From Afifella marina DSM 2698 (GTDB lineage: Bacteria; Pseudomonadota; Alphaproteobacteria; Rhizobiales; Afifellaceae), in assembly GCF_900102695.1 (NCBI RefSeq), contig NZ_FMVW01000006.1, positions 62,001-126,000 of the forward strand: DNA of 64,000 bases. Direction: 5' to 3'. Position numbers and translations under genes: made by a program. The notes below the pieces were generated by a model, which saw only the letters and a program-made list of their open reading frames with translations, searched no databases and was not told the DNA's origin. Below, piece by piece: positions 52,504 to 64,000 of this stretch; positions within the stretch are counted from its first letter, which is position 1, and every line of letters begins with the position of its first letter.

Positions 52504-53550
52504 TCAAGGGTTCATCGCAGCCGCGCCCGTCAACGGCGCGGACCTGTTTTCTGCGAGAGCCGCCGGTTTTGACGCCAAGGTCGAACCACGCACGATACAG
52601 CGACCGGACAGGACCACCTTGCGAGGCGCCAGCCCCGGATTTTGCAAACGGTCGAAGAGAAGCGACATGGCATTGCGACCGATGTCGTGCACCGGCTGCT
52701 CGATCACCGTCAGCCCCGGCCCGACCACTTCCGTCCAGTCCTCGTTGTCGAAGCCGGCAACGGCGAGATCGCTCGGGATGGCACGCCCCAGCCGCTGCGC
52801 TGCCTTGACCACACCCATGAGCAGCAGGCCATTGCTGGCGATGATCGCCTCCGGCGCATCCGGCCCCGCCAGCCATTCGCTCATCGCCTTCTCGCCCGCG
52901 TCGACGGTCGGCGGGAGGAGGCGCGGATCCGGGGTGAGGCCCCTCGCCTTCATGCTGGCGCAATAGCCGTCGCGGCGCTCCAAGCCCGTCGCGCTCGTCT
53001 GGCCGAAAACACCGCCGATGCGCCGATAGCCCTCTTCGAAAAGATGCTCCACGAGCGTGTTCGCAGCCTCGCGGTTGTCGAGAACGACGGAATCGTAAAG
53101 GCCACCCGCGCCAGCCCGGTCGATGAGGACGGCGGGAAACTGCAACGGGTTCTTTTGCAACTGATCGAGCATGGCGAGCGTCGGCGCGAGAATGAGGCCC
53201 GTCACACGCTCCTCCTGCATCAGACGCAGATACATGCGCTCGCGCTCGACGTTCTCATCGGTATTGCACAAAAGCACGCGCATGCCGGCCCGGTAGGCGG
53301 CATCCTCGACGCCGCGCCCCACGGCCGTGAAGAACGGGTTGCGGATATCGGAGACGATGAGACCGATGGTCTGCGCGTGCTGCGTGCGCAGACGCCTGGC
53401 CGAAAGATTGGGGCGGTAGCCGAGCGCCTTGATCGCAGCGTGAACGCGCTCTTTGGTGTCCGCGCGCACGGGCCCCTCGCTGAGGACCCGCGACACCGTG
53501 GCGACCGACACCCCCGCCTTCTCGGCGACGTCCTTGATGCTGATGGACAT
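52504..53550 (-). CDS. LacI family regulator of the fructose PTS operon (FruR-like)
   Basis: A 348-residue LacI/GalR-type repressor. The N-terminal helix-turn-helix is IKDVAEKAGVSVATVSRVLSEGPVRADTKERV (residues 5-36) with hinge YRPNLSARRLRTQ. A periplasmic-binding-like sugar domain follows (IGLIVSDIRNPFF, GLILAPTL, AVLIDRAG, DLAVAGFDNEDWTEVVGPGLTVIEQPV). It is divergent from fruB-fruK-fruA and probably represses these genes until fructose-1-phosphate or a related sugar phosphate binds. Two copies of AATCGTTTTCAG in the intergenic region are likely operators. The name FruR is used descriptively; it is not the E. coli Cra protein. Confidence 0.87.
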   Translation of the reverse strand: MSISIKDVAEKAGVSVATVSRVLSEGPVRADTKERVHAAIKALGYRPNLSARRLRTQHAQTIGLIVSDIRNPFFTAVGRGVEDAAYRAGMRVLLCNTDENVERERMYLRLMQEERVTGLILAPTLAMLDQLQKNPLQFPAVLIDRAGAGGLYDSVVLDNREAANTLVEHLFEEGYRRIGGVFGQTSATGLERRDGYCASMKARGLTPDPRLLPPTVDAGEKAMSEWLAGPDAPEAIIASNGLLLMGVVKAAQRLGRAIPSDLAVAGFDNEDWTEVVGPGLTVIEQPVHDIGRNAMSLLFDRLQNPGLAPRKVVLSGRCIVRGSTLASKPAALAENRSAPLTGAAAMNP

Positions 53551-53555
53551 TTTCA

Positions 53556-53567
53556 GAAATCGTTTTC
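53556..53567. promoter_or_regulatory. Candidate LacI-type operator 1 (next to regulator gene)
   Basis: GAAATC-GTTTTC is a near-perfect dyad with a central CG, as usual for LacI-family sites. It overlaps the first copy of AATCGTTTTCAG (53558-53569). It lies five bases beyond the regulator's start codon on the upstream side, so binding would block its own transcription or translation leader. Confidence 0.55.
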
Positions 53568-53669
53568 AGACATTACACCTAAACGATGCCACGTTGCGCA
53601 TGAACAGGCAACCATTGTGCGCTGCAAAACATGGATTTCCGGCATGGTTACGATTGACATCCGGAATGT

Positions 53670-53681
53670 AATCGTTTTCAG
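53670..53681. promoter_or_regulatory. Candidate LacI-type operator 2 (next to fruB)
   Basis: AATCGTTTTCAG is an exact 12-bp repeat of the element at 53558-53569. It lies 30 bp before the fruB start codon, where a repressor would block the fru operon. The dyad is weaker here (GTAATC against GTTTTC). A looped complex between the two sites, 112 bp apart, is conceivable. Confidence 0.55.
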
Positions 53682-53711
53682 TAAATCAACTGGTACGGAG
53701 GAAATGGACCA

Positions 53712-56228
53712 ATGACAATCGCCCAGCCCGACATCCTGCCACCGTCCAATCTGGTTCGCCTCGGCGCCGCGCCCGCCGACAAAGAGGCCGCCATCCGGGA
53801 AGCCGCGCAGCTGTTGATCGCCGCCGGATGCATCGATCCCCAATATGCCGACAGCATGATGCGGCGCGAGGACGTGGCCGAAACCTATCTCGGACACGGC
53901 GTCGCCATCCCCCACGGCAAGGTCGAAGATCGGGGCATGGTCCGCCGCAACGGCCTCTCCATCCTGCAAGTGCCTGAGGGCGTCGAATGGAATGCGGGCC
54001 AGACGGTGCATCTCGTCGTCGCCATCGCCGCAGAATCGGACGCGCATATCGATACGCTGAGGCGTCTCACGAACCTTCTGCAGGACGAAGAGCACCTCAA
54101 GAAGCTGTTCACGACGAACGACACCTCCGACATCATCAACGCTTTGAGTGAGGCCAACGCCGAGCCCGAGGCAGATGGAGCGCCCGCGGAAGATCTCGAC
54201 GAACGCTTCGAGTGGACCGTCGATTACCCTTCGGGCCTTCACGCCCGCCCGGCCTCGGCATGGGTTGCAGCCGCGCGCAAGGCGAGCGGCTCCGTCCAGG
54301 TGCGCAAGGGCACCGCCGTGGCCGATGCCAAGTCGCTCGTGTCGCTCCTGCGGCTCGGCCTGCGCCAGGGCGACACGATCGTCATTTCCGCCGACGGCCC
54401 CGATGCGAGCTCCGCAATCGACCGGATGCAGGCAACCGTCACCTCGCTCAGCGCTCAGGAAAAAGCGGATGCCCAGGCGGCAAAAGGACCGGAGCCGACC
54501 GCCAAGGGCTGGACGCCGCCGGAGGAGATGCCGGTCATCGCAGGCATCGGCGCAAGCCCCGGCCTTTCCATCGGGCCGATCCACATCTACGCGCCCGCCG
54601 AAATCGCCATTGCGGATACGCCGACGCCCCTCAACGAAGGCGGCAACAAGCTGCACGAGGCTTTGACGGTGACGCAGACGCAGCTGCGCGTCCTCGCCGA
54701 CGACACGCTGCGCCGTCTCGGGGAAGCGGAAGCAAACATCTTCCGCGCTCAGGCCGAACTCCTCCACGACACCGATCTCATCACCCTCGCCTGTCAGCTG
54801 ATGGTCGAAGGACACGGTCTCGCCTGGTCCTGGAACGAGGCGATCGAACGCACGGCCCGCGATCTTGAATCCAACGACAACGAGGTGCTGGCCGCACGTG
54901 CCGCCGATCTGCGCGACGTCGGACGCCGCGTCCTGGCGCGGATCGACCCCTCGCTCGAGAACAGAGATGGCGATCCCCTGCCGGCTGAGCCTTGCATCCT
55001 CGTCGCCGGCGACCTCTCGCCCTCCGATACGGCAGGCCTCGATGTGGAGCGGGTGCTCGGGCTCGCCACCGTTCAGGGCGGACCGACGTCGCACACCGCC
55101 ATTCTGGCGCGCACGCTCGGCCTGCCGGCGATGGTCGGCGGCAGCGAGGCCCTGCTCGACCTCGAAAACGGCACGGAAGTCATTCTCGATGGCCAGGCCG
55201 GCCGCCTCTATCCGAAGCCGTCCGCCTCGGCCATCGCTTCGGCGCGCGACTGGCTCGCCGCGCAGGAAGAGCAGCACAAGCGCGAGATCGCCGAGCGCAG
55301 CCTGCCGGCGCGCACCACCGACGGACATCAGGTGGAGATCGCCGCAAACATCAACCGACCCGACCAGATCGAGCTCGCACTCTCGCAAGGCGGCGAAGGC
55401 GTCGGCCTGATGCGCACGGAGTTCCTGTTCCTGGAGCGCAGCTCCGCACCGACGGAAGATGAGCAGTACGAGACCTACCGCGCCATGCTCGATGGCCTCG
55501 AAGACCGTCCGCTCATCGTGCGGGCGCTCGATATCGGCGGCGACAAGCAGGTGCCGCACCTCAACCTGCCGCGCGAGGCCAATCCTTTCCTCGGCGTGCG
55601 CGGTTCGCGGCTTCTCCTGCGCCGCCTCGACCTTCTCGCCACGCAGCTGCGTGCGCTTTATCGCGCCGCCCGCGACGGCGAGAGCAGCGGTCTTTCGATC
55701 ATGTTCCCGATGATTACCTCCGTTGGCGAAATGCAGCGGCTCAGGGCCGTTGCCGACAGCATCCGCGACGAGCTCGATGCGCCAAAGGTGCCGCTCGGCG
55801 CCATGGTGGAGGTGCCGGCCGCGGCGATCGGAGCGGACATCCTCGCCCGCTATGTCGACTTCTTCTCCATCGGCACCAACGACCTCACGCAATACGGCCT
55901 CGCCATCGACCGGCAGCATCCGGAACTCGCCGCGGAGGCGGATGCCCTGCATCCTTGCGTCCTGCGCCTGATCCGCATGACCGTCGAGGGGGCCGCAAAG
56001 CACGGCCGCTGGGTGGGCGTGTGCGGCGGCATCGCCGGCGAGCCTTTCGCGGCCTCCCTTTTGACCGGCCTCGGGGTGAACGAATTGTCGATGACGCCCC
56101 GCGACATCCCCGCCGTCAAAGCAGCCCTGCGCGAGACGTCGCTGAGCGCGCTCAAAGCCCTCGCCGACAAAGCTCTTGCCTGCGAGACGGCAGCCGAGGT
56201 GCATGCCTTGGATCGGGAGGAATTGTGA
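53712..56228 (+). CDS. fruB: Fructose PTS multiphosphoryl transfer protein (EIIA-HPr-EI fusion)
   Basis: An 838-residue fusion of three phosphotransfer modules. Domain EIIA-Fru has its phosphohistidine His68 in GHGVAIPHGK. An HPr domain (about residues 165-255) carries His177 in YPSGLHARPAS. Enzyme I follows, with His461 in VQGGPTSHTAIL, the GVGLMRTEFLF segment, the DIGGDK motif and the C-terminal SIGTNDLTQYG and GVCGGIAGEP. It takes phosphate from phosphoenolpyruvate and passes it to FruA for fructose uptake. Such a fused FruB makes the system independent of general PTS proteins. The stop overlaps the fruK GTG start (GTGA), and the gene leads the fruBKA operon. Confidence 0.95.
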   Translation: MTIAQPDILPPSNLVRLGAAPADKEAAIREAAQLLIAAGCIDPQYADSMMRREDVAETYLGHGVAIPHGKVEDRGMVRRNGLSILQVPEGVEWNAGQTVHLVVAIAAESDAHIDTLRRLTNLLQDEEHLKKLFTTNDTSDIINALSEANAEPEADGAPAEDLDERFEWTVDYPSGLHARPASAWVAAARKASGSVQVRKGTAVADAKSLVSLLRLGLRQGDTIVISADGPDASSAIDRMQATVTSLSAQEKADAQAAKGPEPTAKGWTPPEEMPVIAGIGASPGLSIGPIHIYAPAEIAIADTPTPLNEGGNKLHEALTVTQTQLRVLADDTLRRLGEAEANIFRAQAELLHDTDLITLACQLMVEGHGLAWSWNEAIERTARDLESNDNEVLAARAADLRDVGRRVLARIDPSLENRDGDPLPAEPCILVAGDLSPSDTAGLDVERVLGLATVQGGPTSHTAILARTLGLPAMVGGSEALLDLENGTEVILDGQAGRLYPKPSASAIASARDWLAAQEEQHKREIAERSLPARTTDGHQVEIAANINRPDQIELALSQGGEGVGLMRTEFLFLERSSAPTEDEQYETYRAMLDGLEDRPLIVRALDIGGDKQVPHLNLPREANPFLGVRGSRLLLRRLDLLATQLRALYRAARDGESSGLSIMFPMITSVGEMQRLRAVADSIRDELDAPKVPLGAMVEVPAAAIGADILARYVDFFSIGTNDLTQYGLAIDRQHPELAAEADALHPCVLRLIRMTVEGAAKHGRWVGVCGGIAGEPFAASLLTGLGVNELSMTPRDIPAVKAALRETSLSALKALADKALACETAAEVHALDREEL

Positions 56229-57214
56229 AACCCTCACCCCTCCCCGTCGTCACCGTCACCCTGAACCCGGCGATCGACCAGACGGTCGTCGTGGACGGGA
56301 TGACACTCGGCGAAGTCCACCGCGCCTCGTCCGTGCAGAGCAATGCCGGCGGCAAGGGCGTCAATGTCGCGAGCTGCCTCGCCGACTGGTCGGTGCCCGT
56401 GATCGCGACGGGCATCCTGGGCGGCGGCAATCCCGGTCCCTTCGAGGCGCTTTTCAGCGCCAAGACCATTCGCGATCTCTTCGTGCGCGTTCCTGGAGAA
56501 ACGCGCACGAACATCAAGATCGCAGATCCCACGCGCAACGAGACAACCGACATCAACCTCCCCGGGCCGGTAGCCGACGACGCAGCTCTCGAACGGGTGA
56601 AAGCCGTTCTCAACGAGACGGTGTCGCCGGACAGTCTCGTCGTGCTTGCCGGCAGTCTGCCGGCCGGGCTTCCCGACGAGACGCTCGCCCGCCTCTCGGC
56701 GGCGCTGCGAGGAAGAGGTGCGCGGGTCGTTCTCGATACCAGCGGCGCGCCCCTCAAGGCCGCACTCTCGGCACCAGCCGAAAATCTCCCTTTCTGCGTC
56801 AAACCCAATCAGCACGAACTTGAGGAATGGGCGGGTAAGCCCTTGCCGCGCCGCGAGGATCTTCTCGCAGCCGCCGCTGCTCTTCAGGCGAGCGGTATCG
56901 CCGTGGTGGTGGTTTCACTCGGCGCCGAGGGGGCCCTGTTCGTTACCAAAGACCAGGTTCTCAAAGGCCGCAGCGAACCCGTCGAGACCTTGAGCACCGT
57001 CGGGGCCGGAGACGCCATGGTGGCGGGCCTCGTCGCCGCTTTTCGAGATGATGCGCCGCTTGAAGACGTGGCGCGTCTTTCCATCGCCTTTGCCGCCGCG
57101 AAGCTGGGCCGCATCGGGCCGCATCTGCCCGATGCAGAGGAAGTCCAGCGTCTTGCCCGGGCGGTCGTCGTGACGGAGCTCCCGGCTGGCCGGGACCTCA
57201 AGCAACAAGCATAG
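56225..57214 (+). CDS. fruK: 1-phosphofructokinase
   Basis: A 329-residue PfkB-family kinase. It phosphorylates fructose-1-phosphate, the product of FruA, to fructose-1,6-bisphosphate. It has [16 protein letters not shown] at the start, [16 protein letters not shown] (substrate loop), [23 protein letters not shown] and the catalytic anion hole [13 protein letters not shown] with the base Asp. The start is GTG at 56225, overlapping the fruB stop, with GGGAGGA directly upstream. Gene order fruB-fruK-fruA is standard in proteobacteria. Confidence 0.94.
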
Positions 57215-57222
57215 GAGGACCC

Positions 57223-58977
57223 ATGACACACGTTCTTGCCGTCATATCGGCAGGCGACCTCACGACCCAGGCCGCGTTGGCGGCCGAGGCCCTGCGCAAG
57301 GCGGCCGACAATCTGGGCCATCGCATCGACATCGAGGTGCGCTCCGACCTCGGCATCCGCAATTCGATTTCGAGCAAGGCTGCGAGTGACGCCGCCGCCC
57401 TTCTCCTGGTCGGCCCCGGCGAGCACGAGGAAAGCCGTTTCGGGACGCTGAAGCAAAGCACGGCGACCATCGAGGCGGTGCTGGAGGATGCTGACGGCGT
57501 CCTCGCCCAGGCCGTTCAGGCGGCCGGTTCCACCACCGATTCCCCACAAGCCGCCTCGTCCGGCGGACAAAAGCACATCGTCGCCATCACCTCCTGCCCG
57601 ACCGGCATCGCCCATACCTTTATGGCGGCCGAGGGCGTGCAGAAAGGCGCCGAGGCTCTGGGTTATTCGGCACGCGTGGAAACGCAAGGCTCTGTCGGAT
57701 CCCAGAACAAGCTGACCGACGAGGAAATCGCAAAGGCCGATCTCGTCATCATCGCCGCCGACACGCAGGTGGATTTGAGCCGCTTCGCCGGCAAGCCCGT
57801 CTTTCTGTCCGGCACCAAACCCGCCATCAACAACGGCAAGGCGTTGGTTGAGCGGGCTTTCAAGGAAGCAGAGATCCAGGGCGGCAGCCAGGGCCTCGCC
57901 GACCGTGTTGCCGCCGGCAAGGCGGAACGCGCCGCTTCCCGTACGGGCCCTTACAAGCACCTGATGACCGGCGTGTCGTACATGCTGCCCTTCGTCGTTG
58001 CGGGCGGCCTGCTGATCGCGGTCGCCTTCGCAATCGGCGGTATCTACGCTTACGAAAACGAAGGCACGCTTGCCTACAATCTCTTCCAGATCGGCGCCAA
58101 GGGCGGCTTCGCGCTGATGGTCCCGGCCCTTGCCGGCTATATCGCCTACTCGATCGCCGACCGGCCCGGCATCACGCCCGGCATGATCGGCGGCCTTCTT
58201 GCCGCCAATGTCGGCGCCGGCTTCCTGGGCGGCATCGTGGCCGGCTTCATCGCCGGCTACGGCACCGATTTCATGAATCGGCACATCAAGCTGCACAAGA
58301 ATCTTGAAGGCCTGAAGCCGGTTCTCATTCTGCCGCTCCTCGGCACGCTCCTGACCGGCCTGTTGATGATGTATGTGATCGGCACGCCCGTCGCCGAAAT
58401 CATGACCTTCCTGACGAACTGGCTGAAGTCGATGCAGGGTTCGAGTGCCATCATGCTCGGCCTCATCATCGGAGCGATGATGGGCTTCGATCTCGGCGGC
58501 CCCGTCAACAAGGCGGCCTACACCTTCTCCACCGGGCTGCTCGCCAGCCAGGTCTATACGCCTATGGCGGCCGCGATGGCCGCGGGCATGGTGCCGCCGC
58601 TCGCCGTGGCGCTTGCGACGAAGCTCTTCGCCGACCGCTTCACCGCGGACGAGCGGGAAGCCGGCAATGCCGCGGCCGTGCTGGGCATCGCCTTCATTAC
58701 GGAAGGCGCCATCCCGTTCGCGGCGCGCGACCCGCTGCGGGTGATCCCCGCCATGATGGTGGGCGCGGCCACGACAGGCGCCATCTCGATGGCGATCGGT
58801 GCCGAGCTCAAGGTCCCGCATGGCGGCATCTTCGTCCTGCCGATCCCGAACGCTGTCACCCATCTCGGCGGTTATATCGTGGCGCTCCTGGTCGGCACGG
58901 TGGTGAGCGCGTTGCTCCTGCGGCTTCTCAAGAAGCCGATAGCGGCTGCCGCGCCGGCTCTCGCGCCCGCTGAATAA
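57223..58977 (+). CDS. fruA: Fructose PTS permease EIIBC
   Basis: A 584-residue fructose-specific PTS permease. An N-terminal degenerate EIIB' domain (about residues 1-105) lacks the active cysteine. The functional EIIB domain has Cys125 in [17 protein letters not shown]. The EIIC membrane domain, with about eight to ten helices, starts near residue 245 ([24 protein letters not shown]) and contains [16 protein letters not shown] and [14 protein letters not shown]. It takes up fructose and phosphorylates it at C1. It lies eight bases after fruK, with AGGAGG as ribosome-binding site, and ends the operon before the hairpin at 59018-59044. Confidence 0.95.
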
Positions 58978-59017: not shown

Positions 59018-59044
59018 GAGGCCGGCGCCAAAAACGCCGGCCTC
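59018..59044 (+). terminator. Hairpin terminator of the fru operon
   Basis: GAGGCCGGCG and CGCCGGCCTC form a perfect 10-bp GC-rich stem with a 7-base A-rich loop, 40 bp after the fruA stop. A long T run is absent afterwards, so termination may be partial or Rho-assisted. Confidence 0.65.
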
Positions 59045-59176
59045 ATCGTATTGAAGGACGCATCATGGCGGGCCCGAACGTGGGTTTCGCGCGGCACCGG
59101 AACAACCGCATTGCCTGCGCAAAACGCCGTCATGAAAAACCCGATTTCGCTTGCTAAAGTCGCTTGTAGTGGGTAG

Positions 59177-59191
59177 TGTAGTTTTACTACA
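59177..59191. promoter_or_regulatory. HexR-type operator upstream of adhE
   Basis: TGTAGT-TTT-ACTACA is a perfect palindrome with 6-bp arms, 133 bp before the adhE ATG. It fits the HexR consensus TGTARTWWWAYTACA as known from Gammaproteobacteria. The identical element (read on the other strand) occurs at 63433-63447 beside the HexR-like regulator gene. A partial half-site lies at 59165-59170. Confidence 0.8.
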
Positions 59192-59324
59192 TAAGCCGAC
59201 CGCTCGGCCGGAAAACACAGACCATCCCGGCATCAATCAGCGAGTGGCGCGGCCATCCCTGCCCTAGGGTTCCGCCCTAGAGGGCAGCGCGCAGAAACCC
59301 AATATTCCTGGAAGGGCCAGAGCC

Positions 59325-61982
59325 ATGCCATCCGATACGCTCCCCAGCCTCGACGCTCTCATCGCTCCCGTGAAGGAGGCCCAACGCGTCTACGCTGGGT
59401 ACTCCCAGGAGAAGGTCGATCGGATCTTCCGCGCCGCCGCGCTCGCGGCAAATAACGCCCGCATCAAGCTCGCCAAACTCGCCGTCGAAGAAACCGGCAT
59501 GGGCGTGATGGAAGACAAGGTGGTCAAGAACCACTTCGCGTCGGAGTACATCTACAACAAGTACAAGGACGAGAAGACCTGCGGCATCCTCTCCGAGGAG
59601 CCGGAGTATGGCACGCTGACGATCGCCGAGCCGATCGGCCTCATCTGCGGCATCGTCCCGACGACCAACCCGACATCGACAGCCATTTTCAAGGCACTCA
59701 TCAGCCTGAAGACGAGAAACGGCATCATCTTCTCGCCGCATCCACGCGCGCGCCGCGCGACCTGCGAAGCGGCCCGCATCGTGCTCGAGGCAGCGGTCGC
59801 AGCCGGCGCGCCCGAGAACATCATCGGCTGGCTCGAAGAGCCGACGGTCGAGCTCTCGAACGCGCTGATGCGCCACAAAGACATCAACCTCATTCTCGCG
59901 ACCGGCGGGCCGGGCATGGTCAAGGCGGCCTATTCCTCTGGCAAGCCCGCAATCGGCGTCGGCGCCGGCAATACGCCGGCCGTCATCGACGAATTCGCCG
60001 ACATCAAGCGCGCCGTCGCCTCCATTCTCATGTCGAAGACGTTCGACAACGGCGTCATCTGCGCCTCGGAGCAATCGGCGATCGTCGTCGATGAGGTCTA
60101 TGACGCGGTGCGTGCGCGCTTTGCCAAGCATGGCGGCTACATTCTCTCGCCCGACGAGACCGATGCGGTCCGCCATGTCATCATGCCGAACGGTACGCTG
60201 AATGCGCGTATCGTCGGCCAGTCGGCGGCCGCCATCGCCGAAATGGCCGGTTTCTCGGTGCCACCCTTCACCAAAGTTCTGATCGGCGAAGTGAGGGACG
60301 TGAGCGAGGCGGAAGTCTTCGCCCATGAGAAGCTGTCACCGACGCTGGCGCTCTACCGCGCCAAGGATTTTGGCCATGCCTGCGATATCGCGGCTGAGCT
60401 GGTCGCGCTCGGCGGCATCGGTCACACCTCGGTTCTCTATACAGAGCAGGACCAGCAGGAAGAGCGCATCCACCAATTCGGCGACCGCATGAAGACGGCG
60501 CGCATCCTGATCAACTCACCGTCTTCGCAGGGCGGGATAGGCGATCTCTACAATTTCCGGCTGGCACCGTCGCTGACACTCGGCTGCGGCTCTTGGGGCG
60601 GCAATTCCATCTCGGAGAATGTCGGTCCCCAGCATCTCATGAACAAGAAAACCGTGGCGAAGCGAGCGGAAAACATGCTCTGGCACAAGCTCCCGAAATC
60701 CATCTACTTCCGCCGCGGCAGCCTGCCTTTCGCGCTCGAAGAGTTGCGGGGGCACAAGCGCTGCCTGATCGTCACCGACAAGTTCCTGTTCGAAAGCGGT
60801 GCCGTCAGCGAAACCATCGGCCTCCTCAAGAATCTGGGCCTCGAGGTCGAGGTGTTTTACGAGGTCAACGCCGATCCGACGCTCGAGACGGTGCGCAAGG
60901 CGACCGCGCTCGCCAATGCCTTCAAGCCGGACGTGATCCTTGCGCAGGGCGGTGGTTCGCCGATGGATGCGGCGAAGATCATGTGGGTGATGTACGAGCA
61001 CCCCGACGTCGCCTTCGAAGAACTCGCGCTGCGCTTCATGGATATCCGCAAGCGCATCTACAAATTCCCGAAAATGGGTATCAAAGCGCAGTTCGTCGCG
61101 GTGCCGACGACCTCGGGCACCGGCTCTGAAGTCACCCCCTTCGCCGTCGTCACCGACGAGAAAACGGGCATCAAATACCCGATCGCCGATTATGAACTCA
61201 CGCCCAACATGGCGATCGTCGACCCCAATCTCGTCATGACCATGCCGAAATCGCTGACGGCGGCCGGCGGCATCGATGCGGTGACGCACGCACTCGAATC
61301 CTACGTTTCCGTGCTGGCGAACGAATATAGCGACGGCCAGGGGCTCCAGGCCCTCAAGCTCCTCAAAGACTATCTGCCGTCGGCCTATCGCAATGGACAC
61401 GAAGATCCGAAGGCGCGCGAACAGGTGCACAATGCCGCGACGATCGCCGGCATCGCGTTTGCCAACGCCTTCCTCGGCGTATGCCATTCCATGGCGCACA
61501 AGATCGGTGCGGAATTCCATATTCCGCATGGTATCGCCAACGCGCTCCTGATCTCGAATGTCATCCGCTACAACTCGGCCGACATTCCGACCAAGCAGAC
61601 GGCCTTCAGTCAGTACGATCGCCCGAAAGGCGTCGCACGCTATGCGCAGATCGCCCGCCATCTCGGCCTTTCCGGCGAGCGCGACCACGAGCGGGTGCAG
61701 AGCCTCATCGTCTGGGTGGACGAGCTGAAGGAGGCGCTGGAGATCCCGGGCAGCATTCAGGCCTTTGGCGTCAAGGAGGCGGACTTCCTCGACAAGGTGG
61801 ACAGCCTCGCCGAGGCGGCCTTCGACGACCAATGCACCACCGCCAACCCGCGCTTTCCGCTTGTCAGCGAGCTGAAGCAGCTCCTCCTCGACAGCTATTA
61901 CGGCCGGGCTTGGGTCGAGCCATCGCTCGAAGCTGAAGACCAGACGCAGGCTTCCTCCCCGGCCTCTCTTGCCGCCGAATGA
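59325..61982 (+). CDS. adhE: Bifunctional acetaldehyde-CoA/alcohol dehydrogenase
   Basis: An 885-residue AdhE of full length. The N-terminal half is a CoA-acylating aldehyde dehydrogenase with the catalytic Cys246 in NGVICASEQSA and VPTTNPTSTAIFKAL. The C-terminal half (from about residue 450) is an iron-dependent alcohol dehydrogenase. It has GGGSPMDAAK and VPTTSGTGSEVTPFAV, and AEFHIPHGIANALLISNVIRYN bears iron-ligand histidines. The enzyme reduces acetyl-CoA to ethanol with two NADH during fermentation and typically forms spirosomes. A HexR-type site lies upstream. It is unusual among Hyphomicrobiales-like gene sets, and with pflB nearby it marks a capacity for anaerobic sugar use. Confidence 0.96.
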   Translation: MPSDTLPSLDALIAPVKEAQRVYAGYSQEKVDRIFRAAALAANNARIKLAKLAVEETGMGVMEDKVVKNHFASEYIYNKYKDEKTCGILSEEPEYGTLTIAEPIGLICGIVPTTNPTSTAIFKALISLKTRNGIIFSPHPRARRATCEAARIVLEAAVAAGAPENIIGWLEEPTVELSNALMRHKDINLILATGGPGMVKAAYSSGKPAIGVGAGNTPAVIDEFADIKRAVASILMSKTFDNGVICASEQSAIVVDEVYDAVRARFAKHGGYILSPDETDAVRHVIMPNGTLNARIVGQSAAAIAEMAGFSVPPFTKVLIGEVRDVSEAEVFAHEKLSPTLALYRAKDFGHACDIAAELVALGGIGHTSVLYTEQDQQEERIHQFGDRMKTARILINSPSSQGGIGDLYNFRLAPSLTLGCGSWGGNSISENVGPQHLMNKKTVAKRAENMLWHKLPKSIYFRRGSLPFALEELRGHKRCLIVTDKFLFESGAVSETIGLLKNLGLEVEVFYEVNADPTLETVRKATALANAFKPDVILAQGGGSPMDAAKIMWVMYEHPDVAFEELALRFMDIRKRIYKFPKMGIKAQFVAVPTTSGTGSEVTPFAVVTDEKTGIKYPIADYELTPNMAIVDPNLVMTMPKSLTAAGGIDAVTHALESYVSVLANEYSDGQGLQALKLLKDYLPSAYRNGHEDPKAREQVHNAATIAGIAFANAFLGVCHSMAHKIGAEFHIPHGIANALLISNVIRYNSADIPTKQTAFSQYDRPKGVARYAQIARHLGLSGERDHERVQSLIVWVDELKEALEIPGSIQAFGVKEADFLDKVDSLAEAAFDDQCTTANPRFPLVSELKQLLLDSYYGRAWVEPSLEAEDQTQASSPASLAAE

Positions 61983-61989
61983 CGGCGCA

Positions 61990-62038
61990 TTGGCGGGTCC
62001 GCACTCACCCCTCCTCCCGAAGAGAGCGGACCCGCCAA
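61990..62038 (+). terminator. Inverted repeat after adhE, possible terminator
   Basis: TTGGCGGGTCCGC (61990-62002) and GCGGACCCGCCAA (62026-62038) are perfect 13-bp arms separated by 23 bases, starting eight bases after the adhE stop. The stem is stable, but the loop is large and no T run follows. It may end or protect the adhE transcript and separate it from the small gene. Confidence 0.5.
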
Positions 62039-62099
62039 ATCAATTCCGACGCCAGGTCAGTCCGGACGGCTGTCGCCGCAGGACAGAAGGAACGAGACG

Positions 62100-62345
62100 A
62101 TGAGCAAGAGCTTGATGTGGACCGCCAAGGACGCGCGGGGCCTCACGGTTCAGTGCCTCTTCAATGAAGATGCTCGCAGCTACGAGATGACCGTCTCGGC
62201 CCAATCCGCCCGGGCATGTCGCAGCGAGGCCTTTCTGGCGAGCACCGAGCCCGTCTTCGGCATGGATCCGAACGACAGGGCGCTGTCGGTGCAGGTCGCA
62301 GACCGGCTCATGCACGACGCCGCGCGCTCGCTCGGCGATTTCTGA
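62100..62345 (+). CDS. Small hypothetical protein (81 aa) next to adhE
   Basis: An 81-residue open reading frame with an RBS-like AAGGAAC seven bases before its ATG. The sequence (MSKSLMWTAKDARGLTVQCL at the start, ending AARSLGDF) has two cysteines, no membrane helix, and no motif I recognise. The composition and codon usage match neighbouring genes, which supports it as real. It lies 117 bp after adhE and converges on the HexR-like gene 31 bp away. No function is proposed; a link to AdhE or to fermentation is suggested only by position. Confidence 0.6.
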   Translation: MSKSLMWTAKDARGLTVQCLFNEDARSYEMTVSAQSARACRSEAFLASTEPVFGMDPNDRALSVQVADRLMHDAARSLGDF

Positions 62346-62376
62346 CGACACGCTGACGACTTTGCGGACCGTGTCG

Positions 62377-63216
62377 TCAGTCCCGCAACCCGCCGTTTTC
62401 CTTCAAGAGGGCTTTGCTGCGTTCCACGCGCTCATGCAGGGTTTTCCCCTTGCGCAGAGCCACGCAGATGGAGAGCGCATCTCCCAAAACGAGATGGCTG
62501 ATACGGGAGGTGAGCGGCGAGTAGACGTCGTATTCCTCCGCGACGTCAGTCAGAAGGCTCACGGTCGCGAGGCGGGCCAGCGGAGAATCGGAGCGGGTCA
62601 GCGCCACGACATCGGCGCCGACCGTCAGCGCGTTCTGCACGCTGTCCAGAATATCGCGTGTGCGCCCGGAATTGGACACGGCCACGACCGCGTCACCCGG
62701 TGCGAGCGACAGCGACGAAATGAAATACACATGCGGATCGCAATAGGCGACAGTCGGCATTCCGAGCCGGAAGAAGCGGCGCTGAACATCCTCCGCGATG
62801 GTGCCGGAATTGCCCGAGCCGTAGAACTCGATGCGCCGCGCCGACGCCAGAATGTCCGCGGCCTTGTCGAGCATCGAAGCGGAGAGATTGTTGCGCACGC
62901 CGATCAGCGTGTTGATGGTGCGATCGAAGACTTTTCCGGCGATGCCGCTCGCACCGTCATCGGGAAGCACATCCTGATCGAGAAACGGCATTCCGCCGGC
63001 GATATCCTGCGCCAGCTTGATCTTGAACTCGCGAAATCCCTTGCAGCCGAGCGCGGAACAGAAGCGCGCCACCGTCGGCTCGCTCACCTCCGAACGGCGC
63101 GCCACTTCGGCCATCGACAGATTGATGACCTCGCCAGGATGCGAGAGCACGAAGTCCGCCAGCTTGCGCTCCGACGGCCGGATCTGATCCTTGACCGAGG
63201 TGATTCTTCCCAACAT
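62377..63216 (-). CDS. RpiR family transcriptional regulator, HexR-like
   Basis: A 279-residue RpiR-type regulator. The N-terminal helix-turn-helix region is IRPSERKLADFVLSHPGEVINLSMAEVARRSEVSEPTVARFCSALGCKGFREFKIKLAQ (residues 13-71). A SIS sugar-phosphate-binding domain follows (RIEFYGSGNSGTIAEDVQRRFFRLG, VVAVSNSGRTRDI, LLTDVAEEYDVYSPLTSRI). The pattern follows E. coli/Pseudomonas HexR along most of its length, including the start MLGRITS against MLEKIQS. ATG 63216 (AGAGGG upstream) is preferred; ATG 63300 in the same frame has no RBS. HexR responds to 2-keto-3-deoxy-6-phosphogluconate in known cases. It lies between adhE and pflB, each with a matching palindrome. Confidence 0.88.
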   Translation of the reverse strand: MLGRITSVKDQIRPSERKLADFVLSHPGEVINLSMAEVARRSEVSEPTVARFCSALGCKGFREFKIKLAQDIAGGMPFLDQDVLPDDGASGIAGKVFDRTINTLIGVRNNLSASMLDKAADILASARRIEFYGSGNSGTIAEDVQRRFFRLGMPTVAYCDPHVYFISSLSLAPGDAVVAVSNSGRTRDILDSVQNALTVGADVVALTRSDSPLARLATVSLLTDVAEEYDVYSPLTSRISHLVLGDALSICVALRKGKTLHERVERSKALLKENGGLRD

Positions 63217-63545
63217 CTCCGCCCTCTTTTGTTGCGTCAGGCGGCGAAAGCGGTCATCCGTGACGGGGGCCAGCACAGACAAGCCCTGCGTGGTACGCAT
63301 GACAGCATGCTACACACCGCAAATCCGATCTGGATTAAGACTAACGTTCTGACAGTTTTATGTTTTTACCCTTGGGGAAAATTCGAGCGAGCTACGATTC
63401 TCGCTCTTTCGCCCTTCAACCATGCCCATTTGTGTAGTAAAACTACAGAAAGTCAACGGTTCGTGAAACGGATCCAATCCAACCGGCGGAACCATCAGAA
63501 ATATGATAGGTTCATGCCACAGCGCCCTTTTCCCAAGGAGTGACA
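63217..63545. other. Divergent regulatory region between the HexR-like gene and pflB
   Basis: This region of about 330 bp holds the second HexR-type palindrome (63433-63447). It also has a 7-bp inverted repeat, GAGCGAG (63385-63391) and CTCGCTC (63400-63406), and a TATGAT -10-like element at 63502-63507. If TATGAT serves pflB, the palindrome would sit near position -70 to -80. An in-frame ATG at 63300 could extend the regulator into the region. No other gene is visible. Confidence 0.5.
63433..63447. promoter_or_regulatory. HexR-type operator between the HexR-like gene and pflB
   Basis: TGTAGT-AAA-ACTACA is a perfect palindrome and the exact reverse complement of the site at 59177-59191. It lies 99 bp before the pflB ATG and about 217 bp before the regulator's start. 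It could therefore serve both pflB control and autoregulation. Confidence 0.8.
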
Positions 63546-64000
63546 ATGAACGCCATAGTGATGTCCTCTCGCGTCGATCTCAACGACTTCCCGACGACGA
63601 ACGACCCGTGGCGTGGCTTCAAGCCCGGCGCGTGGCAGCACGAAGTCAACCTCCGCGACTTCATCCTCGACAATATCACGCCTTACGAGGGCGATGCCTC
63701 CTTCCTTAGCGGCTCGACCAAACGGACGAAAGCGCTCTGGGACAAGGTCGCCGAGCTCCTGAAAGAGGAGCGCGCCTCCAAGGGCGGCGTTCTCGACGCC
63801 GACACCGAGGTGGTTTCCTCCATCACCGCGCATGGCGCGGGCTACATCGACCGCGATCTGGAAGTCGTCTTCGGACTGCAGACAGACAAGCCGCTGAAGC
63901 GCGGGATCATGCCGTTCGGCGGCTGGCGCATGGTCGTCAAGGGCCTGGAAGCCTATGGCTTTACGCCCTCGCCCAAGCTCAAAGAGGTGTTTCCGAGCCT
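63546..64000 (+). CDS. pflB: Formate acetyltransferase (pyruvate formate-lyase), N-terminal part
   Basis: The first 151 codons of a pyruvate formate-lyase gene, cut by the window end. The ATG follows AAGGAG with a five-base spacer. The translation has the PFL N-terminal pattern NDPWRGFKPGAWQHEVNLRDFI, the ITPYEGDASFL segment, and DLEVVFGLQTDKPLKRGIMPFGGWRMV. The full enzyme, a glycyl-radical protein, converts pyruvate and CoA to acetyl-CoA and formate without oxygen. The radical glycine and the activase gene pflA are expected beyond the window. Acetyl-CoA from this reaction is the substrate of AdhE encoded upstream, and both genes share the HexR-type site. Confidence 0.95.
   Translation, partial: MNAIVMSSRVDLNDFPTTNDPWRGFKPGAWQHEVNLRDFILDNITPYEGDASFLSGSTKRTKALWDKVAELLKEERASKGGVLDADTEVVSSITAHGAGYIDRDLEVVFGLQTDKPLKRGIMPFGGWRMVVKGLEAYGFTPSPKLKEVFPS

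Follow-up and report, generated by a model that had tools for sequence, protein, structure and literature searches.

The fermentation genes adhE and pflB of Afifella marina DSM 2698 lie on either side of a gene encoding an RpiR-type regulator, raising the question of whether these genes form one regulon and which metabolite its regulator would sense. The window, meaning the whole 64,000-nucleotide stretch of DNA analysed, reads through a LacI-type regulator gene, the fructose PTS genes, an inverted repeat, operator 1, adhE, a small gene, the RpiR gene on the negative strand, operator 2 and pflB, with pflA beyond its end (Table 1). The original prediction was of a local fermentation regulon of adhE and pflB whose regulator is encoded inside the set it would control. 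The position of the RpiR gene between the adhE-small gene pair and pflB agrees with this, and the regulon itself is well supported by comparative genomics, as the operators and gene pairs recur in Azospirillum. The locus is very probably a small autoregulated fermentation regulon, belonging to a fermentation-dedicated branch and derived from an Azospirillum-like source. Fermentation control is little described in Alphaproteobacteria, and a literature search at the level of titles returned no recognisable account of an alphaproteobacterial RpiR regulator of pflB or adhE, and none of the Azospirillum regulator divergent from pflB; here, the whole regulon can be read from several species.

Table 1. 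Genes and predicted regulatory sites of the fermentation locus, numbered from the first letter of the window.
Feature	Position	Strand	Remarks
Fructose-PTS genes: LacI-type regulator, EIIA-HPr-EI fusion, PfkB-type kinase, EIIBC	52504..58977		
Extra TGTAGT half-site	59165..59170	+	12 bp upstream of operator 1; putative role
Operator 1, TGTAGTTTTACTACA	59177-59191	no strand	133 bp before adhE start codon
adhE, bifunctional acetaldehyde-CoA/alcohol dehydrogenase	59325..61982	+	885 aa
Small gene, function unassigned	62100..62345	+	81 aa
HexR/RccR-like RpiR regulator, HTH_6 + SIS	62377..63300	-	307 aa as opened
Candidate decayed second operator, TGACAGCATGCTACA	63300..63314		133 bp from operator 2; tentative
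Operator 2, TGTAGTAAAACTACA (reverse complement of TGTAGTTTTACTACA)	63433-63447		between divergent regulator gene and pflB
pflB, pyruvate formate-lyase	63546..64000, runs past window	+	761 aa in all; then pflA

The AdhE product scores 1432 bits against the NCBIfam model PRK13805 (cut-off 951) and is 81-82% identical to three Azospirillum AdhE proteins and 74% identical to E. coli AdhE, while PflB shares 79-82% identity with Azospirillum PflB; the closest homologues of both proteins are those of Azospirillum. The regulator is the only match to PF01418 (HTH_6) in the whole Afifella marina genome. Its start is probably Met29 (63216), giving 279 aa, because the annotated starts of its orthologues fall at the corresponding residue, and with this start the intergenic region between the regulator gene and pflB would probably measure 329 bp. 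The small-gene product matched no family in Pfam or NCBIfam, and codon changes in its gene among three congeners are mostly silent. Upstream of adhE, an inverted repeat with a 10-bp stem follows fruA at 59018-59044; it was recognised by eye, is conserved among congeners and was not reported by the terminator scan. The fructose-PTS stretch (52504..58977) holds no operator of the adhE/pflB kind. Within this PTS (53712-58977), EIIA, HPr and EI are fused in a single 838-aa protein.

The two palindromes had been described as exact reverse complements of each other, upstream of adhE and between the regulator gene and pflB, with no third copy, and these positions were confirmed, as were the gene calls of the locus; TGTAGTTTTACTACA and TGTAGTAAAACTACA are the only exact copies even genome-wide. 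Both operators are 15-bp palindromes and are the sole matches to TGTARTWWWAYTACA at up to two mismatches in the 64-kb window, and 100 shuffles gave 0 matches at this threshold. Across the genome (3,963,421 bases, 3.96 Mb), nine places match TGTARTWWWAYTACA, the two operators exactly and the remaining seven with two mismatches each; these seven are at chance level, because the reversed control pattern yields 18 places. Exact TGTARTWWWAYTACA is present in 7 of 199 genomes of the order and the reversed control in 10 of 199, the latter counted manually from a printed table. A single exact match per genome is thus unremarkable, and what is remarkable is the presence of two copies at these genes, separated by 4.3 kb. 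Neither operator showed a sigma-70 consensus in the promoter scan.

Both operators are exact in the congener G028, and in G107 the adhE copy carries one substitution. In an alignment of the three congeners, 14 of the 15 positions of operator 1 are invariant, and operator 2 falls within a 61-bp invariant block (63427-63487), of whose 100 preceding positions 66 are invariant. The candidate decayed operator TGACAGCATGCTACA has four mismatches to TGTAGYNNNRCTACA with its right half intact, and is overlapped by a stretch (63301-63326) that is invariant in all three congeners. The regulator (96-98% identity), full-length AdhE (98%) and fruA occur together only in G000, G028 and G107 among 11 genomes of the family; the other eight have AdhE matches of only 31-38%, and three of them hold regulator homologues at 32-38%. 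Since the same three of 11 genomes hold all three genes, regulator, adhE and fruA were gained or lost as a set. AdhE is rare in the class, being found in 20 of 385 genomes including Afifella marina; the other 19 proteins are 56-63% identical, and their adhE loci show no site at up to one mismatch.

The regulator matches both domains of the RpiR family, PF01418 at 78.8 bits (cut-off 28.3) and PF01380 at 61.7 bits (cut-off 25). Against the NCBIfam HexR model (PRK11302) it scores 247.1 bits, below the cut-off of 296, a value that fails to separate HexR from RccR, with Pseudomonas-type RccR scoring 307 and Niveispirillum 308. Two trees, of 49 and 62 sequences, exclude the regulator from a six-member HexR clade (E. 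coli, Vibrio-type and Pseudomonas-type, the names other than E. coli being putative) with support of 96.3/99 in both, and from a six-member RccR group with 98.1/100 and 81.1/93. In the 62-sequence tree, the regulator forms a group with five Azospirillum regulators (98.3/100), joined next by A. thermophilum (86.8/99) and after that by Rhodovastum (100/100); a sister position to a Niveispirillum group had support of 91.7/89 in the first tree and only 9.6/54 in the larger. Its nearest solved relative, by sequence and fold, is RccR (8ju9, 8k3b), and its identity to E. coli HexR is 37-38%. Among RpiR proteins, the regulator is a member of the HexR/RccR group that falls into neither the HexR nor the RccR clade. 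The proposed phylogeny against HexR therefore puts the protein near HexR/RccR but outside the HexR clade itself. The earlier description of a HexR relative with an unchanged recognition sequence holds for the likeness and the palindrome, but not for strict HexR identity, given the score of 247 bits and the tree position. A distant regulator, with the motif common at unrelated genes, had been named as evidence against the idea; the regulator is close to HexR/RccR though outside it, and the motif is frequent across the wider RpiR group yet not within the Afifella marina genome.

The operator consensus given for gammaproteobacterial HexR in the original prediction is TGTARTWWWAYTACA, of which the locus holds two exact copies. 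The regulator resembles gammaproteobacterial HexR (E. coli YebK/HexR, Shewanella, Vibrio) in its RpiR fold and this 15-bp palindrome, but differs in that the Afifella Entner-Doudoroff genes carry no operator and the ligand pocket is changed. HexR regulons that include fermentation genes are described for Shewanellaceae and Vibrionales in two reports (PMC5343134, PMC3223726). From Pseudomonas RccR, which is KDPG-responsive and acts on aceEF, aceA, glcB and pckA, the regulator differs in its targets and in the lack of a 28-bp site in the window. Operator 2 is nonetheless a 15-bp TGTAGT/ACTACA site of the RccR kind, TGTAGTAAAACTACA being identical to one of the two RccR sites at aceE of P. fluorescens, as given in PMC5489143. 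A third comparison is offered by the Niveispirillum-type, Entner-Doudoroff-linked HexR-like regulators of Azospirillaceae, which are 47-50% identical to the regulator; their genes lie near zwf-pgl-edd-eda in nine of ten named loci, with a site at up to one mismatch near the regulator gene in all ten. These proteins control Entner-Doudoroff genes and keep R277 (five sequences aligned), whereas the Afifella regulator has lost R277 and the Entner-Doudoroff cluster of its genome has no site. For central carbon metabolism in Alphaproteobacteria, PMC5507952 names the regulators CceR and GluR.

Orthologues of the regulator were found on 13 plasmid records at 62-73% identity (12 Azospirillum and one Rhodovastum), all of which were examined. 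In 11 of these (67-73% identity) the regulator gene is divergent from pflB with an exact TGTAGYNNNRCTACA site in between in every case, and in four of the 11 intergenic regions the letters of the site are TGTAGTTTTACTACA itself. The A. thermophilum regulator gene lies between gntP-gluconokinase and a fermentation cluster of adhE, gap, pflBA, focA, pta, ackA, the small gene and eda, and that of Rhodovastum is divergent from edd-gntP-gluconokinase. In its plasmid record, the adhE reading frame of A. thermophilum appears to be split into two overlapping frames (L258, 3183-6067), reflecting either a sequencing error or a broken gene. Further operators lie upstream of the adhE-small gene pair in B510 pAB510a, A. 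oryzae and A. lipoferum p1, and at the focA operon of A. lipoferum and A. ramasamyi.

Exact TGTAGYNNNRCTACA is present in 12 of 12 tabulated promoters of adhE, hexR/pflB and focA, a count that is no independent test of promoter choice, since the promoters were picked with the sites already in view. Across 11 loci with 267,953 bases in total (omitting the near-duplicate L262, the overlapping L251-L253, L255 and the later short loci L267-L272), exact TGTAGYNNNRCTACA occurs 18 times, and each of the 18 sites falls within these 12 promoter stretches, which total 4,451 bases. As a control, the half-site was permuted and permutations still accepting the real half-site were set aside; none of the 177 others gave an exact match in any of the 12 promoters, and at most one promoter matched with one mismatch. 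This control tests the motif only, not the promoter choice. No site was seen in the B510 pta-ackA-gap-small gene stretch (L255), beyond which its upstream promoter falls, and the pfl and adhE stretches of E. coli gave only one match, at two mismatches.

Most Azospirillum promoters carry a second site, at up to two mismatches and 97-181 bp away (L254, L256-L266), which is also found on the hexR side of the hexR-pflB region. RccR is a tetramer according to PMC10810197, and by analogy such spacing would be compatible with a tetramer bridging two sites, as if by DNA looping. The Afifella marina locus has one clear site per promoter, the only candidate for a second being the weak one at 63300. In B510 and A. 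lipoferum the target genes are spread over different replicons, which suggests that a trans-acting factor serves them.

The original prediction had also included a small gene in the set, and this gene too recurs. Its relatives occur on seven plasmid records, all from Azospirillum, at 46-49% identity; in three (B510 pAB510a, A. oryzae and A. lipoferum p1) the gene comes directly after adhE, and in the other four directly after gap, within operons that also carry pta and ackA and, where the stretch covers them, focA, eno or pgk. The family thus recorded comprises 62100-62345, L254 and L256-L260. The products of both partner genes, adhE and gap, are NAD-dependent dehydrogenases acting on aldehydes. 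The regulon is wider than adhE and pflB alone. With its orthologous regulator, its divergent hexR-pflB pair with an operator between and its operator-adhE-small gene unit, the Afifella locus belongs to the Azospirillum fermentation branch, sharing orthologous group, operators and gene pairs. The Azospirillum system differs in occupying several plasmids, in its operator pairs and in including pta, ackA, focA and gap, whereas Afifella has single sites in one cluster. The regulon, composed of regulator, operators and small gene, has a tractable carrier in Azospirillum brasilense Sp7, in which the divergent regulator-pflB pair is present.

From the computed operators and their genome-wide rarity, the orthology, the conserved gene and operator arrangement and the pocket changes, we infer the following circuit. 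An RpiR-type SIS-domain protein, presumably a tetramer, would bind TGTAGY-N3-RCTACA palindromes in two promoter regions, the one upstream of adhE(-small gene) and the divergent one of hexR-pflB(A). Ligand-free, it would most likely act as a repressor of its own gene and of adhE. The predicted ligand class is a phosphorylated sugar or sugar acid, which may occupy the SIS pocket and change how the protein binds DNA; the enzymes that form ethanol and formate would then be made during sugar breakdown. The cassette probably reached the genus from an Azospirillum-like source.

The nature of the ligand can be approached through the pocket. Nine RccR residues contact KDPG, and replacement of R152, K270 or R277 by alanine abolishes KDPG sensing, as stated in PMC10810197. 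Six of these nine positions are identical in the regulator (S139, R152, H164, S183, S185 and K270) and S188T is conservative, while H148R and R277G are changes, leaving the RccR contact set incomplete. Position 277 is Arg in 40 of 46 other aligned sequences; it lies in a C-terminal tail that is poorly aligned and modelled with low confidence, and the regulator has an Arg three residues further on. Within the fermentation branch, Arg148 is present in 14 of 14 members and Arg277 in 0 of 14, and K270D is found in four. In the early-branching regulators of A. thermophilum and Rhodovastum, His148, Lys270 and Arg277 are all retained. Given the uncertain tail and the nearby Arg, the pocket changes are a strong hint, short of proof, suggesting altered KDPG sensing.

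One reading is an effector switch, in which the fermentation branch senses another phosphorylated metabolite, such as a glycolytic or fructose-derived phosphate. The phosphate contacts S139, S183, S185/T185 and T188 are kept, while changes at the carboxylate/keto contacts 148, 270 and 277 accompany the loss of Entner-Doudoroff linkage; in addition, a fructose PTS adjoins and gap, eno and pgk genes are among the Azospirillum targets. However, R152 and mostly K270 are retained, 277 falls in the uncertain tail, and position 148 varies in KDPG-type HexR too, being Asn in E. coli. We regard this switch as evenly poised between true and false. The fuller reading, that a HexR/RccR branch of Alphaproteobacteria was re-dedicated from Entner-Doudoroff metabolism to mixed-acid fermentation, with the effector changed, the ancestral operator sequence unchanged and a small protein family (adhE/gap) in the regulon, is put forward tentatively, at slightly below even likelihood; on this account the arginine that reads the KDPG head group (together with the lysine in some species) was lost and the phosphate-binding serines were kept. 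It would be a clear example of a regulator acquiring new targets, and perhaps a new ligand, while its operator stays.

The original prediction took the regulator to couple Entner-Doudoroff flux to fermentation, that is, to be a true KDPG-sensing HexR from which KDPG would free adhE and pflB. Seven of the nine RccR contact positions, identical or conservative, speak for this, as do the substitute Arg that the residue three positions past the lost R277 could provide, the presence of zwf-pgl-edd-eda in the genome, and the early-branching orthologues, which adjoin gntP, gluconokinase and edd in Rhodovastum and gntP, gluconokinase and, further on, eda in A. thermophilum. Fructose taken up by a PTS does not pass through KDPG, so that fructose entering via the neighbouring PTS would bypass the proposed signal. 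Against KDPG sensing also stand H148R with the loss of R277 throughout the branch and K270D in four members, given that R277A and K270A abolish the KDPG response of RccR (PMC10810197). The expected edd, eda and zwf genes downstream of further sites did not emerge from the genome scan either: a complete zwf-pgl-edd-eda cluster lies on contig C10, which has no site at up to two mismatches to TGTARTWWWAYTACA, and a looser pattern searched over an 18-kb stretch gave a best match 1.3 kb before zwf with two mismatches. In the absence of a site at this cluster, the regulator, even if KDPG-sensing, would not control the pathway making KDPG here. With the motif also present at unrelated RpiR loci and two contact residues changed, the claimed coupling is not upheld as it stood, and KDPG sensing is possible but doubtful. 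An unchanged HexR-type palindrome alone does not imply KDPG sensing.

An RccR-like mode, in which KDPG or another ligand would weaken binding to 15-bp sites and strengthen binding to long-spaced ones, with opposite effects at the two promoters, is unlikely. RccR uses these 15-bp sites along with 28-bp sites built of the same half-sites, and the 28-bp site of the rccR promoter contains a 15-bp one, as set out in PMC5489143. Operator 1 shows the same nesting, since with the half-site at 59165, unchanged in G028 and G107 and thus in all three congeners, it forms TGTAGT-N6-TGTAGT-N3-ACTACA; its outer span is however 27 bp rather than 28-29 bp. A search of the window for TGTAGT-N2..22-ACTACA found no 28-bp site, and no long-spaced site at operator 2. 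The regulator also falls outside the RccR clade, and the Azospirillum promoters use paired 15-bp sites in place of long-spaced ones. That the palindromes arose by chance beside unrelated genes, an idea that draws on exact matches occurring in about 4-5% of the order's genomes for pattern and reversed control alike, is extremely improbable, with two sites at the regulator's own locus that recur in congeners and Azospirillum.

The same palindrome serves RpiR regulators of other pathways in the order, as at L081, L089 and L090, which encode FGGY sugar kinases, a cupin-type glucose-6-phosphate isomerase and a transporter, and at L080 it is flanked by a TRAP transporter and an RpiR gene. An initial assignment of zwf and eda beside the sites of L081, L089 and L090, made from ORF lengths, was discarded when Pfam identified the FGGY kinase, cupin-type isomerase and transporter. 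The RpiR regulators of L081 and L089 have Leu, not Arg, at KDPG-contact position 152. In a general survey of 45 non-redundant loci (of 74) whose regulators score at least 160 bits, omitting the own genus, E. coli and L034, sites at up to one mismatch occurred anywhere in 22 loci (shuffled half-sites: mean 3.07, largest 13) and near the regulator start in six (mean 0.34, largest 3); exact sites occurred anywhere in seven (mean 0.18, largest 5) and near the regulator start in one (mean 0.06, largest 2), the shuffles including permutations that still accept the real half-site. In the Afifella marina genome, the best near-operator elsewhere, TGTAGTTTGACTATA on contig C6, was rejected; it lies beside genes with matches to molybdate-type solute-binding and ABC proteins, with flanks that we take to resemble a ModE box. 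Another near-operator, inside a tyrosyl-tRNA synthetase gene, was likewise rejected. On the 3′ side of pflA, past the window, lies a propanediol/glycerol-dehydratase (pdu-type) cluster (L073, 4215-13997) containing genes for the large and medium dehydratase subunits, a reactivase-like protein and an aldehyde dehydrogenase.
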